64,000 nt of DNA. Origin: Paenibacillus taihuensis (GTDB lineage: Bacteria > Bacillota > Bacilli > Paenibacillales > Paenibacillaceae). The notes beneath the pieces were generated by a model that had not been told where the DNA came from, searched no databases, and saw nothing but the letters and a program-made list of their open reading frames with translations. Location: positions 1-64,000 of the forward strand of contig NZ_QTTN01000001.1 in NCBI RefSeq assembly GCF_003386535.1. Reading direction: 5' to 3'. Of this stretch, positions 45,685 through 50,008 are shown one piece after another; the first letter of the stretch is position 1; every line of letters begins with the position of its first letter. A program made the position numbers and the translations under genes.

Positions 45685-45884
45685 CGTTTGTGACTTTCGC
45701 GTGAAGCGCTTAGCCTTAGGCAGATGCCAGGCTCGCTTGCTGCGGAAGTCCTTTTTTCTATCATGGCTGCCTGTGCCTTCGCCCGCGCCTCGTCCTCCCG
45801 TAATTTTCAGCAAAAGTAGCTGACCAATCCGTACAAGTGGTATAATAATATGAATAATTGGCGCACAAGGTGGTAGTAAGCATT

Positions 45885-46064
45885 ATGGATCCAATGATGA
45901 AGATGTGGGTGTCTTTCGTAGGCATCGGATTAATGGCTTTGGCCGCAGTTATGATTTCGCTGGCCAGGCTGAAGACGAAAGGCATTTTGCGGGTTATACT
46001 TTCGATGACTGCCTTTCTGCTTCTCGTGATCGGCGGGTTTCTCGGCCTGTTCTCCATCACATAA
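45885..46064 (+). CDS. yphE: DUF2768 small membrane protein (YphE-like)
   Basis: 59 residues, two hydrophobic helices (MWVSFVGIGLMALAAVMISL and VILSMTAFLLLVIGGFLGLF) separated by a basic turn (ARLKTKG), the DUF2768 layout. It lies after gpsA as yphE does in B. subtilis. The ATG at 45885 follows AAGGTGGT by 10 nt. A TATAAT box at 45841-45846 is a possible -10 element. Function unknown. Confidence 0.75.
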   Translation: MDPMMKMWVSFVGIGLMALAAVMISLARLKTKGILRVILSMTAFLLLVIGGFLGLFSIT

Positions 46065-46114: not shown

Positions 46115-46411
46115 ATGCTGGAGCTGAAAGGCCGGACAAAGTTTGCAACCGTAGAAGTGGAGTCTGGAATGTCACTGCTTGATCTGGCGATCAAGCATAA
46201 CGTGGATTTTGCATTTTCATGCACAAGAGGCACTTGTGCCAGATGCCGCTGCCAGATCGAAGCTGGCGCAGAGTTTCTAGAAGAAGTGACGGATGAAGAG
46301 TGGGATCGTCTTGAGCCGGAAGAGCTGGAGGAAGGCTACCGTCTAGGCTGTCAGGCGATCATTAAGCCAGGCGCAGGTACGATCGTAGCTGTAAACCGGC
46401 CTTATTTCTGA
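46115..46411 (+). CDS. [2Fe-2S] plant-type ferredoxin (first of two)
   Basis: 98 residues. The cluster ligands are Cys36, Cys41 and Cys44 in SCTRGTCARCRC plus Cys79 in YRLGCQ, the CX4CX2C...C pattern of plant-type ferredoxins. An acidic insert (about residues 55-74, EEVTDEEWDRLEPEELEEG) could be a partner-binding face. No signal peptide, so cytoplasmic. The redox partner is unknown. The next gene starts 16 nt downstream. Confidence 0.87.
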   Translation: MLELKGRTKFATVEVESGMSLLDLAIKHNVDFAFSCTRGTCARCRCQIEAGAEFLEEVTDEEWDRLEPEELEEGYRLGCQAIIKPGAGTIVAVNRPYF

Positions 46412-46427
46412 GGAGGGCGAGAGCGCT

Positions 46428-47006
46428 ATGAACGACGCTGCACCATTCATCCGTGCGCTTGAGAAGATTGCTGAGGCGGCCGCGGGAACAGAGGCCACAT
46501 GGCTGATCGGCGGCAGTACAGGGCTGCTGCTGCGGGGAATAGATCTTGAGACTATTCCCAGAGACCTGGATCTTTATGCAGATGACGCGGACGCGGTAGT
46601 GCTCCATCAAGCGCTGCTGCCTTACGCCATCGATGAACAGCATCATTCTGTGAGCCCGATCTATCGTTCGGTGCTCAGCCATTACCTGATCGAAGGTATT
46701 CAGGTCGAGCTTGTCGGCGGATTCGTCGTGACGGCAGGCGAAGACTGTTATAAGGTTGAAGTTCGAGATATGTTAGCGGCACGCGGAGCCTTCATTGAAG
46801 CAGGTGCTTACAGGCTCGGCATCGTTCCTCTGGCGCATGAGCTTTGGTTCAATGTGCTGAGAGACCGCGAAGATCGCGTAGCGCTTATTGCTTCTCAGAT
46901 TCGGCAGGAGCCGGATCAGCACGCGGAGGCGGTGCATAGGATTGCCTCCAGAAATCAGCTATCGGCAAGAACGGTAGCGAATGTACAGCGTCTTATCGAG
47001 CAATGA
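46428..47006 (+). CDS. Nucleotidyltransferase-fold protein of unknown function
   Basis: 192 residues. WLIGGSTGLLLRG (Gly28-Gly29-Ser30) followed by PRDLDLY (Asp46, Asp48) is the polymerase-beta-like nucleotidyltransferase signature GGS...DxD. A third acidic residue may be Glu or Asp near QVELVGGF. The rest is helical. Such minimal enzymes can add nucleotides to RNA, proteins or small molecules, or act as antitoxins; nothing here decides. GAGGAGGG is upstream of the ATG. It lies between two ferredoxin genes with short gaps (16 and 38 nt). Confidence 0.7.
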   Translation: MNDAAPFIRALEKIAEAAAGTEATWLIGGSTGLLLRGIDLETIPRDLDLYADDADAVVLHQALLPYAIDEQHHSVSPIYRSVLSHYLIEGIQVELVGGFVVTAGEDCYKVEVRDMLAARGAFIEAGAYRLGIVPLAHELWFNVLRDREDRVALIASQIRQEPDQHAEAVHRIASRNQLSARTVANVQRLIEQ

Positions 47007-47044
47007 TTCGTTTCAACATTGAATAAGGAAGCGAGGAGATTACG

Positions 47045-47392
47045 TTGAACGTAACGATTACGTTTCTCCCTTCCGGACGCAGTGCAACTGTACGTGCAGG
47101 GACGACAGTACTGGAAGCTGCAAGACGGGCAGGTGTGCCGATTCGCACGCGTTGCGATGGCAAGGCCGCATGCCTCATGTGCAAAGTGACAGCTCCGAAC
47201 AGCTCTTCGGGACTGTCTCCGCTAAATGACAATGAGCGCAATAAGCTCGCAGGACTTGACCGTTCGGGGACAAGGCTCGCTTGTCAGGCCAGAGTGTTCG
47301 GCCGTACCGTTGTAGAAGTGCCGGAGGACCCGCTGCGTGCAGCAGTCCGGAAACAGATGATGCGGCAAGCGGAAGAAGATGAACTTTGGTAA
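47045..47392 (+). CDS. [2Fe-2S] ferredoxin-like protein (second)
   Basis: 115 residues with cluster ligands Cys37, Cys43 and Cys46 in RCDGKAACLMC and Cys80 in RLACQARV: a CX5CX2C...C spacing, one residue longer than in the first ferredoxin. The C-terminal tail (DPLRAAVRKQMMRQAEEDEL) is helical and extra. The TTG at 47045 has GAGGAG upstream. It and the first ferredoxin share little sequence beyond the fold, so they are not a recent duplication. Confidence 0.82.
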   Translation: MNVTITFLPSGRSATVRAGTTVLEAARRAGVPIRTRCDGKAACLMCKVTAPNSSSGLSPLNDNERNKLAGLDRSGTRLACQARVFGRTVVEVPEDPLRAAVRKQMMRQAEEDELW

Positions 47393-47423: not shown

Positions 47424-48149
47424 ATGAGAAGGATTAGAAGCGCGGCTGCAGCTATCATTATGCTCGTTATGGCTGTTACGCTGTCCGGCTGTTTGTATCC
47501 GAAGGATAAGCTGGGCCAGTTTCAGAAGCCGCCGAAGGACGCAATCATGAATGTACAAGCAGTTATAGACCAATTTCAGAAAGATACGGGTTTGCTCCCT
47601 ATGCAGAATAGTGAAGCCGACACGCCGATATATGAGAAATTTAAAGTTGATTTCGATAAGCTGCAGCGGATGGGATACATCTCGAGCGTGCCGGAAACCG
47701 CCTATGAGAAAGGCGGCAGCTACTATTATTTAATCATTAACGAGGAAACCGACCCTACCGTTAAGCTTATGAATCTCGTGATCTATCAACAAATGAATGA
47801 CCTGCAAGCGTCTATAAAAGCGTACTCGGACGCTCATAGCGGCAAGGTGCCGGCTGGTGCCGAACTCTACCCAGGCTTCTCCACGATTGACTTCAAGACG
47901 TTGGGCGGGAAGGAGCCGGATATGCACAGCATGTTCTCCGGCAGCACGTTAACGCCGATGGTGGATGCCAATGGGATGGTCTACCTCGACTACGGTCCGG
48001 ACATTATGCAGCTGTTAGCCAAAGAGACCAAAAAGCCTGCAGATAATGAAGATTTGCGTGTTGTCTTGGTGAACAACTCCGACTTCGTGCCAGTTAAATC
48101 GCCGGTTTACCAACTCGTTAACGGTGATCCGCAAGCTGTTTCGAAATAA
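47424..48149 (+). CDS. yphF: Lipoprotein YphF
   Basis: 241 residues. Signal peptide with lipobox TLSGC (Cys near residue 23), then a soluble domain with MNVQAVIDQFQKDTGLLPMQ, YYYLIINEETDPTVKLMNL and DYGPDIMQL. Length and place before spoIVA match B. subtilis yphF. Function unknown, probably sporulation associated by context. A terminator follows. Confidence 0.85.
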   Translation: MRRIRSAAAAIIMLVMAVTLSGCLYPKDKLGQFQKPPKDAIMNVQAVIDQFQKDTGLLPMQNSEADTPIYEKFKVDFDKLQRMGYISSVPETAYEKGGSYYYLIINEETDPTVKLMNLVIYQQMNDLQASIKAYSDAHSGKVPAGAELYPGFSTIDFKTLGGKEPDMHSMFSGSTLTPMVDANGMVYLDYGPDIMQLLAKETKKPADNEDLRVVLVNNSDFVPVKSPVYQLVNGDPQAVSK

Positions 48150-48167
48150 GTGTGCAAAACACCATTG

Positions 48168-48203
48168 AATACTCCTGCCGAATAGGGCAGGAGTATTTTT
48201 TTA
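48168..48203 (+). terminator. Rho-independent terminator after yphF
   Basis: AATACTCCTGCC/GGCAGGAGTATT, a 12-bp stem, followed by TTTTTT. Confidence 0.93.
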
Positions 48204-48266
48204 TTATCGCAATTATGTTCTTGCCGATCAGCAGCGAAACTTATTTTGATTATGACGCAAAAAAGC

Positions 48267-48295: not shown

Positions 48296-48529
48296 TCAAT
48301 CTTGGAAGGCCGGAAGTGTTATGGCTAATGGAAATCTATAAGATTTCATCTCTGCAGTCGTCATAATTAGGAAGAGAACGCAATAAGCTATTACTAGTCC
48401 AAAATCATGTACGAGTTGCGTCGCTAGCATGATAGCGAAGCGGCGAAACCTGACGACGAACAGCAGGAGGCAAAGCAGCAGTACGGTACGTCCATGTACA
48501 GGCGAATTACGATTGGGAGGGGATATTCA

Positions 48530-50008
48530 GTGGAGAAAGTGGACATTTTCAAGGACATTGCCGAACGAACCGGCGGGGATATTTACCTCGGCGTCGTCGG
48601 TGCGGTCCGCACAGGCAAATCAACCTTCATCAAGCGGTTCATGGAGACGGTTGTGCTGCCAAACATCACGAACGATGCCGATCGGGTTAGAGCGATTGAT
48701 GAATTGCCGCAAAGCGCGGCAGGCAAAACAATCATGACAACTGAGCCAAAATTCGTACCGAACCAAGCGGTGCAGCTTCGGGTAGCGGAAGGGCTTGATG
48801 TGAATATCAGGCTCGTCGATTGTGTCGGCTATGCCGTTGTCGGCGCGAAAGGCTACGAGGATGAGAACGGTCCGCGGATGATTACGACTCCGTGGTTCGA
48901 AGAGCCGATTCCTTTCCAAGAAGCGGCGGAGATCGGCACACGCAAAGTAATCCAGGAGCATTCGACGCTTGGCGTCGTCGTTACGACTGACGGAACGATT
49001 GCTGAAATTCCGCGCAGCTCGTACGTCGAAGCCGAGGAGCGGGTTGTAGGCGAGCTGAAGGAAGTCGGCAAGCCGTTCGTCCTCATCGTCAACTCCACGC
49101 GTCCGAAGAGCGAAGAGGCGCTGCAGCTGCGCAGCGAGCTCCAAGCGAAATACGATATTCCAGTCATTACGCTGAGTGTCGCAACGATGGGCGAAGAAGA
49201 AGTTATGTCCGTTCTGCGCGAGGTGCTCTACGAGTTCCCTGTGCATGAAGTGAACGTGAACCTTCCAAGCTGGGTTATGGTGCTCAACGACAATCACTGG
49301 CTGCGCAACAACTACGAGAACTCCGTACGCGACACTGTCAAAGACATTCGCCGTCTGCGCGATGTCGACCGCGTCGTTACGCAGTTTATGGAATACGAGT
49401 TCATCGCCCGTGCCGGCCTAAGCGGCATGAACATGGGGCAAGGAGTCGCTGAGATCGATCTCTACGCGCCGGATGAATTGTATGACCAAATCTTGATGGA
49501 AGTCGTCGGCGTCGAGATTCGCGGCAAAGACCATCTGCTCCAGCTGATGCAGGACTTCGCGCATGCGAAGCGGGAGTACGATCGGTTCGCAGAAGCGCTC
49601 GAAATGGTCAAGACGACAGGCTACGGCATTGCGGCACCTACGCTTGCTGAGATGGCGCTTGATGAGCCGGAGCTGATCCGCCAAGGCTCGCGCTTCGGTG
49701 TCCGCCTGAAAGCGACTGCCCCGTCTATCCATATGATTCGCGTCGATGTCGAGTCCGAGTTTGCGCCGATTATCGGAACCGAGAAGCAAAGCGAGGAGCT
49801 CGTCCGGTACTTAATGCAGGACTTCGAGAACGATCCGATCAAGATTTGGGAATCCGACATCTTCGGCAGGTCGCTTCATTCGATCGTAAGGGAAGGCATC
49901 CAGGGCAAAATCGCGATGATGCCGGACAATGCACGGTACAAACTGCAGGAAACATTGGGCCGGATTATCAACGAAGGCTCTGGCGGACTCATTGCCATTA
50001 TCTTGTAA
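48530..50008 (+). CDS. spoIVA: Spore coat morphogenetic ATPase SpoIVA
   Basis: Mother-cell ATPase that polymerises around the forespore as the base layer of the coat. 492 residues, the same length as in B. subtilis. The P-loop GAVRTGKST (Lys30, Ser31), VDCVGYAVVGAKGYEDENG and VIQEHSTLGVVVTTDG mark the ATPase domain; the C-terminus EGSGGLIAIIL carries the localisation determinants. The GTG at 48530 (GGGAGGGG 7 nt upstream) gives the family N-terminus MEKVDIFKDIAERTGG; longer starts at 48494 are rejected. Confidence 0.97.
   Translation: MEKVDIFKDIAERTGGDIYLGVVGAVRTGKSTFIKRFMETVVLPNITNDADRVRAIDELPQSAAGKTIMTTEPKFVPNQAVQLRVAEGLDVNIRLVDCVGYAVVGAKGYEDENGPRMITTPWFEEPIPFQEAAEIGTRKVIQEHSTLGVVVTTDGTIAEIPRSSYVEAEERVVGELKEVGKPFVLIVNSTRPKSEEALQLRSELQAKYDIPVITLSVATMGEEEVMSVLREVLYEFPVHEVNVNLPSWVMVLNDNHWLRNNYENSVRDTVKDIRRLRDVDRVVTQFMEYEFIARAGLSGMNMGQGVAEIDLYAPDELYDQILMEVVGVEIRGKDHLLQLMQDFAHAKREYDRFAEALEMVKTTGYGIAAPTLAEMALDEPELIRQGSRFGVRLKATAPSIHMIRVDVESEFAPIIGTEKQSEELVRYLMQDFENDPIKIWESDIFGRSLHSIVREGIQGKIAMMPDNARYKLQETLGRIINEGSGGLIAIIL

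Follow-up and report, generated by a model that had tools for sequence, protein, structure and literature searches.

The locus beside spoIVA in the Paenibacillus taihuensis window (the whole stretch of 64,000 nucleotides analysed here) appears to be a conserved operon, so far uncharacterised, whose proteins are all of known kinds. Our preferred reading, to which we assign a probability of about two in three, is that of a vegetative operon containing a pair of general electron carriers together with an orphan NMP transferase, which are inherited neighbours sharing transcription. The genes spoVIF, yphE, fer1, NT, fer2, a yphF-type gene and spoIVA follow one another in the window. The initial annotation had described three genes in tandem between a DUF2768 gene and yphF-spoIVA, and the open reading frames, the Pfam assignments and the survey of loci confirm this layout, with gaps of 16 nt between fer1 and NT and of 38 nt between NT and fer2. 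All three lie on the forward strand. fer1 (46115..46411) encodes a [2Fe-2S] ferredoxin of 98 residues with the pattern CX4CX2CX34C, NT (46428..47006) encodes a TM1012-like nucleotidyltransferase of 192 residues with a predicted GS/DxD/E94 active site, and fer2 (47045..47392) starts with TTG and encodes a [2Fe-2S] ferredoxin of 115 residues with the pattern CX5CX2CX33C. Chance open reading frames were ruled out, as the three genes recur in this order at the same spot across the bacterial order.

The flanking genes, likewise on the forward strand, define the limits of the proposed operon. Its first gene, yphE (45885..46064), encodes a small DUF2768 protein (PF10966, 46.8 bits) and is preceded by spoVIF (PF14069, 65.3 bits in Pfam). 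The yphE start is likely the ATG at 45885 and not the TTG at 45858 given by the ORF caller, judging from the ATG or GTG found at this position in 21 of 22 alignment rows (all 21 that reach there). A Shine-Dalgarno-like AAGGTGG also favours the ATG at 45885. The last gene, of yphF type (47424..48149), lies upstream of spoIVA and belongs to a family present at the loci of relatives; it has no Pfam match at E 1 in the window, and its name follows from its position and from PMC13068155. According to this source, yphF of B. subtilis has spoIVA on one side and the DUF2768 gene yphE on the other, in agreement with the statement of the initial annotation that yphE and yphF are neighbours in this species. 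The sporulation gene spoIVA (48494..50008), detected in 96 of 98 genomes, served as the survey anchor. The distance from yphF to spoIVA reaches 2.4 to 5 kb in five loci (L033, L056, L086, L093 and L106), in which the order from yphE to yphF is intact.

A single vegetative SigA-type promoter is probable upstream of yphE. The candidate is the extended -10 element TGgTATAAT at 45838..45846 on the forward strand, identified from the alignment and from its conservation across loci. In 58 of the 98 loci surveyed, the 130 nt preceding the first operon gene contain TGnTATAAT, against a mean of 0.57 and a maximum of 3 in shuffled sequences, and plain TATAAT is found in the same region of 67 loci (shuffled mean 6.2, maximum 12); the shuffling moved blocks of two bases and does not strictly preserve dinucleotide composition. 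No TGnTATAAT was found in the internal spacers (0/64, 0/58, 0/72 and 0/86). A sigma-70 scan of the window region by itself gave 2 hits versus 3.3 expected, which is not above chance, and the promoter claim is made because of the conservation of the element across loci. It is missing from 40 of the 98 loci and from all 16 loci of one genus (g7, which we take to be Saccharibacillus), where NT or fer2, lying close behind gpsA, may be read through from gpsA. Just 3' of yphF, an intrinsic-terminator-like hairpin of 13 pairs with a T-rich tail (48167..48208, forward strand) is proposed as a terminator from its position, as one such hairpin was found in the region versus 2.8 expected in shuffles. The promoter element upstream of yphE and the hairpin after yphF together delimit a likely unit, yphE-fer1-NT-fer2-yphF, that would be transcribed as one operon from the vegetative SigA-type promoter and would probably end at the hairpin. 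The detection of Parageobacillus YphF in exponential-phase cells, reported in PMC13068155, is consistent with vegetative expression.

NT is confidently predicted to be a member of the nucleotidyltransferase fold superfamily. Structure prediction of 46428..47006 with AlphaFold2 (mean pLDDT 97.0, pTM 0.91) yielded this fold, which upholds the assignment that the initial annotation had drawn from the GGS and DLD motifs. These motifs lie at residues 28-30 and 46-48, and their GS and DxD residues are invariant in all 74 in-locus proteins: the invariant positions are G29, S30, P44, D46, D48, E94 (on strand 91-103 of the model), H137, E138, N142, R145, R147 and R150. The NT alignment A1 contains 71 of the 74 proteins, with L003, L005 and L007 omitted as near relatives of kept rows. 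The proteins of L108 and L109, which lie outside the locus, do not enter the conservation counts. Given the predicted fold and the invariant active-site motifs, NT is very likely a catalytic enzyme. On the model, it would use the metal-dependent chemistry common to such enzymes to transfer the NMP part of an NTP onto an acceptor, with G29 and S30 as the putative GS loop and D46, D48 and E94 as the putative metal ligands, while the helical patch of H137-E138, N142, R145, R147 and R150 probably holds the triphosphate.

The closest solved relative of NT is TM1012 from Thermotoga maritima (PDB 2ewr, 2fcl and 4hx0), a putative nucleotidyltransferase. Foldseek returned 12 PDB matches at E ≤ 0.001, namely TM1012 (three), ANT(2'') (five), LnuA (one), MenT1 (one) and a pair of H. 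pylori entries, of which one is titled putative nucleotidyltransferase. Both Foldseek (E 4.1e-11) and VIA-align (Z 19.9 over 156 residues, rmsd 2.2, with 2fcl) rank TM1012 at the top, and the NT profile matches it with E 2e-15 over profile positions 7-140, where the GS, the DxD and the third acid (E) are aligned. The two proteins differ in that their identity is 17-20% and that the alignment stops at model residue 162, leaving the last helices of NT uncovered. Our literature search turned up no account of the function of TM1012. The NT family offers a handy way to look for the activity of TM1012-like proteins, whose structures are solved and whose function was not found in the literature searched. 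Against Pfam and NCBIfam, the window NT stays below every cut-off, and a search for literature on a Paenibacillus [2Fe-2S] ferredoxin with spoIVA or with a nucleotidyltransferase found nothing; the suggestion in the initial annotation that the system is undescribed thus stands so far. These results define, within one bacterial order, a nucleotidyltransferase family that is uncharacterised, strictly conserved and predicted to have an intact active site.

The two flanking proteins belong to the Fer2 family, with PF00111 scores of 44.5 bits for fer1 and 39.9 bits for fer2 (cut-off 21). The CX4CX2C and CX5CX2C motifs reported for fer1 and fer2 are both present, together with a fourth cysteine in each protein (C79 and C80) that had gone unmentioned. 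The fer1 ligands Cys36/41/44 and C79 are invariant in all 26 aligned proteins, and the fer2 ligands Cys37/43/46 and C80 in all 30 (alignments A2 and A3, picked from the in-locus sets). From the family assignment and these ligands, Fer1 and Fer2 are inferred to act as soluble [2Fe-2S] electron carriers. The fer1 profile matches PDB 1i7h (E 3.9e-14; presumably from E. coli) and the fer2 profile matches PDB 3ah7 (E 7.6e-12; presumably from P. putida), with the four Cys ligands in common in both cases. In contrast, the ISC-type ferredoxin model TIGR02007 scores 40.8 bits with fer1 and 38.8 bits with fer2, far below its cut-off of 132.1, and there are no isc genes among the identified locus neighbours.

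Genes of fer1 type outside the spoIVA locus come after a truncated-haemoglobin gene (PF01152) in L100 (1444-1848), L101 (1469-1948) and L107 (1069-1371), and in L107 an NADPH:FMN reductase gene lies between the two. The same order of globin, flavin-reductase-like and fer1-type genes was recognised by eye in L276 (1502-1804), and a reductase-ferredoxin-globin chain for NO or oxygen chemistry is possible. In one genome (G062), fer1 is gone from the spoIVA locus and is found N-terminally extended in L063 (2370-2756), flanked, as judged by eye, by a thioredoxin-like open reading frame and a divergent Crp/Fnr-like regulator. As fer1-type genes outside the locus mostly follow globin genes, this context points to a general electron-donating role for proteins of the Fer1 type; for truncated haemoglobins, PMC3820574 describes proposals that ferredoxin reductases and proteins like them supply the electrons. 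The fer2 genes found away from spoIVA (10 neighbour proteins in 5 loci) showed no recurring partner.

The locus was mapped in all 98 genomes of the main survey, which covers the window's own genome, its genus, its family and its order (presumably Paenibacillales). NT was detected in 75 genomes, fer1 in 87 and fer2 in 91. A neighbourhood survey for the co-occurrence of the three genes, as the initial annotation had advised, shows the trio at the locus in 60 of the 98 genomes, and in the best 80 of 311 confirmed named records matching the NT profile, 75 have a ferredoxin on either side of NT and 5 have one ferredoxin. The titles among these 80 are Paenibacillus, Cohnella, Thermobacillus and, twice, 'Bacillus sp.'. 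The other loci carry fer1 and fer2 without NT (15/98), NT and fer2 without fer1 (12/98), fer2 as the sole member (4/98), fer1 and NT without fer2 (2/98; G036 and G049), fer1 as the sole member (1/98) or none of the three (4/98). These counts are corrected for position. Ferredoxins were labelled by best profile score, and the first-position ferredoxin of six loci (L032, L045, L077, L092, L093 and L098) scores higher with the fer2 profile; it was counted as fer1 by position, backed by a fer1 profile match at the same place. The raw profile labels were trio 56, NT and fer2 16, fer1 and fer2 13, fer2 6, none 4, fer1 and NT 2, and fer1 1. In the 75th NT genome (G024), the match is weak, contains stops and lies away from the locus, hence 74 NT genes in the locus.

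In the wider class sample of 398 genomes, which includes some relatives already seen, NT matches were obtained in 54. Two of them (G399 and G433), from family f64 of another order, have the arrangement yphE-NT-yphF-spoIVA with no ferredoxin in between, and, within the sensitivity of the tool, neither is among the 165 genomes matching the fer1 profile or the 172 matching the fer2 profile at E 0.001. Conversely, family f32, which we take to be Brevibacillaceae, shows yphE-fer-fer-yphF-spoIVA without NT in 4/4 sampled loci, and its genomes are absent from the 54 NT-positive ones among the 398. A single fer2 separates yphE from yphF in the examined loci of families f21, f30, f33 and f37; two loci of family f17 read gpsA-fer2-spoIVA, and one locus of f22 holds fer1 alone. 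The pieces of the locus thus form a mosaic at one chromosomal spot. NT matches outside the window's family other than those in f64 are weak (E 1.5e-18 or worse). Neither fer1 nor fer2 was found beside these weak NT relatives in L212-L218, and in L212-L217 the search detected none of the remaining genes of the set. The 10 neighbour proteins in L212, L213 and L215-L217, which include a two-component kinase, an ABC transporter, a DXP reductoisomerase, a TetR regulator, CrcB and a hydrolase, contain no recurring partner. L214 resembles L213, judged by the sizes of its open reading frames. A horizontal cassette was rejected as an origin of the locus, with one strong NT copy per genome at a single locus.

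The initial annotation had proposed a redox-linked nucleotidylation module. Such a module would make nucleotide transfer respond to the redox state, with NT either gated by at least one of the two ferredoxins or modifying it. The flanking of NT by two ferredoxins in 60 of 98 genomes, a promoter apparently common to NT and the ferredoxins, the presence of fer2 in 72 of 74 NT-positive loci and the adjacency of NT and fer2 in 6 asporogenous genomes all speak for such a module, but the parts come apart. In G399 and G433, NT is present and no relatives of the two ferredoxins were detected, the ferredoxins occur without NT in 15/98 genomes and in the four sampled f32 loci, fer2 also occurs alone, and the weak NT relatives have no fer1 or fer2 found beside them. 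We regard this module as improbable, even though it is the likeliest of the alternatives. Since fer1, NT and fer2 are each found without the others, they behave as long-standing neighbours more than as one redox-driven machine. In the vegetative-operon reading that we prefer, NT and the ferredoxins would not require one another, and the chromosomal spot beside spoIVA would simply have retained these genes for a long time.

The second alternative is that the trio acts in spore formation with yphE, yphF and spoIVA; the initial annotation had suggested, from the setting, a possible tie to sporulation. Its position amid spoVIF, yphE, yphF and spoIVA invites this interpretation, and B. subtilis yphF is cited second-hand as sporulation-related in PMC13068155. 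The genus g7 provides a natural experiment that separates the spore genes from their neighbours (loci L035, L058, L225, L246-L250 and L260-L275). A genome-wide search found no SpoIVA in any of its 16 genomes, with B. subtilis as a positive control, and SpoIIIAE was likewise absent from the two genomes tested (G027 and G057), which keep Spo0A. In the stretches fetched from this genus, which in L260-L275 continue for about 1.5 kb past the match and in L035, L058 and L225 for up to 6.6 kb, spoVIF, yphE, fer1 and yphF are all missing. Nevertheless, fer2 comes next after gpsA or gpsA-NT in 16/16 genomes, and NT is present in 6/16.

A tree of g7 built from gpsA and fer2 of the same locus and rooted on G026 places the ten NT-less genomes in one clade with a support of 100, which shows that NT was lost once within the genus. 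In the genomes that keep it, NT is under purifying selection, with dN/dS values of 0.087-0.118 for four unsaturated pairs; these are the 4 of 15 pairs with dS under 1.5, and the remaining pairs either exceed a dS of 2 or have no value. The g6 genomes (16) and g18 genomes (5) listed in the class sample have NT without exception. The single loss inside an asporogenous genus fits the sporulation alternative, as the absence of NT from 10 of its 16 genomes could reflect a weaker need without sporulation. The asporogenous loci also lack fer1, although the mapped g6 and g18 loci, which have spoIVA, lack it as well; accordingly, the asporogenous test covers fer2 and NT. The retention of fer2 (16/16) and NT (6/16) without SpoIVA indicates that the function of fer2, and of NT in the genomes that keep it, is independent of spore-making, and this retention, the purifying selection on NT and the vegetative-type element upstream of 58 of the 98 loci argue against a spore module, which we consider unlikely and place second among the alternatives. 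In the favoured vegetative operon, neither fer2 nor NT would serve the spore only. Because the surrounding spore genes are gone from g7 while fer2, and in one clade also NT, remains, the locus shows how little a neighbouring spore gene reveals about function.

A third alternative retains a regulatory bond between the neighbours. NT would be an order-wide housekeeping transferase that modifies RNA or protein in vegetative cells, with fer2, and perhaps fer1, as its redox sensor or target; the ferredoxin-less NT would be ancestral and the ferredoxins a later control layer. NT and fer2 co-occur above independence, fer2 being present in 72/74 NT-positive versus 19/24 NT-negative loci (Fisher p 0.009 on position-corrected counts, a test that ignores phylogeny), which leaves room for a possible functional link. 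This excess of fer2 keeps the control-layer interpretation open, and we hold it to be doubtful, third in rank among the alternatives.

The structural neighbours beyond TM1012 bear on the acceptor of NT and on the last alternative, that NT acts as a toxin or modifies antibiotics in the manner of MenT/AbiEii or ANT(2''). In VIA-align, TM1012 is followed by MenT1 (Z 14.2 over 170 residues, rmsd 3.5, covering almost the full length of NT), 5uvd, a nucleotidyltransferase-like protein from a fungus (Z 11.3), MenT3/TglT (Z 10.9 at most) and ANT(2'')-Ia (Z 10.6), and LnuA matches with Z 8.9. MenT1 and MenT3/TglT are tRNA-extending nucleotidyltransferases of the DUF1814/AbiEii group, and PMC10435456 describes residues T39 and K137 of MenT1 and the addition of nucleotides to tRNA acceptor ends. 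As MenT1, the closest structural match of known activity, acts on tRNA ends, an RNA 3' end would be the first guess for the acceptor of NT by analogy, ahead of a small molecule. With an RNA acceptor, NT would share the fold of the MenT enzymes and have a housekeeping role in place of a toxic one. Unlike MenT1, however, NT has P44 two residues before the DxD and no assured counterpart of T39 or K137, and no Lys is invariant among its 71 aligned members; the catalytic Lys and Asp of MenT1 are K137 and D152. The AbiEii/MenT model PF08843 gives no match to the window NT at E 0.1 and matches 3/71 members, with a best E of 0.025.

Similarity to the aminoglycoside adenylyltransferase model PF10706, the family of ANT(2'')-Ia, is more widespread: 61/71 NT members match at E up to 0.1 (best 3e-6), and the window NT itself, at E 0.03 and 14.9 bits, falls below the gathering score of 21. 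These resemblances in fold and profile notwithstanding, a toxin or resistance enzyme is the least probable alternative and very unlikely, since NT, in contrast to ANT(2'')-Ia, is chromosomal and kept through the whole order as a single strong copy at a single locus, its neighbours are ferredoxins, yphE, yphF or gpsA, with no antitoxin-like gene adjoining it, and it has no PADLOC match at E 1. A toxin-antitoxin pair was rejected for want of a partner gene, and a defence system was rejected with no PADLOC match to any of the three proteins at E 1.

A weak likeness to the phosphoribosyl-dephospho-CoA transferase MdcG was also observed. PF10620 picks up 25/71 NT proteins when E is allowed to reach 0.1 (best 4.5e-5) and TIGR03135 matches 8/71 (best 0.002); the window NT itself matches neither model, and no malonate decarboxylase genes are among the identified locus neighbours. 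Two genomes (G083 and G090) possess a second, diverged NT-like gene elsewhere (L108 and L109, E 1.6e-4 and 7.9e-8), whose products keep the GGS and DxD motifs and have Asp in place of NT E94.
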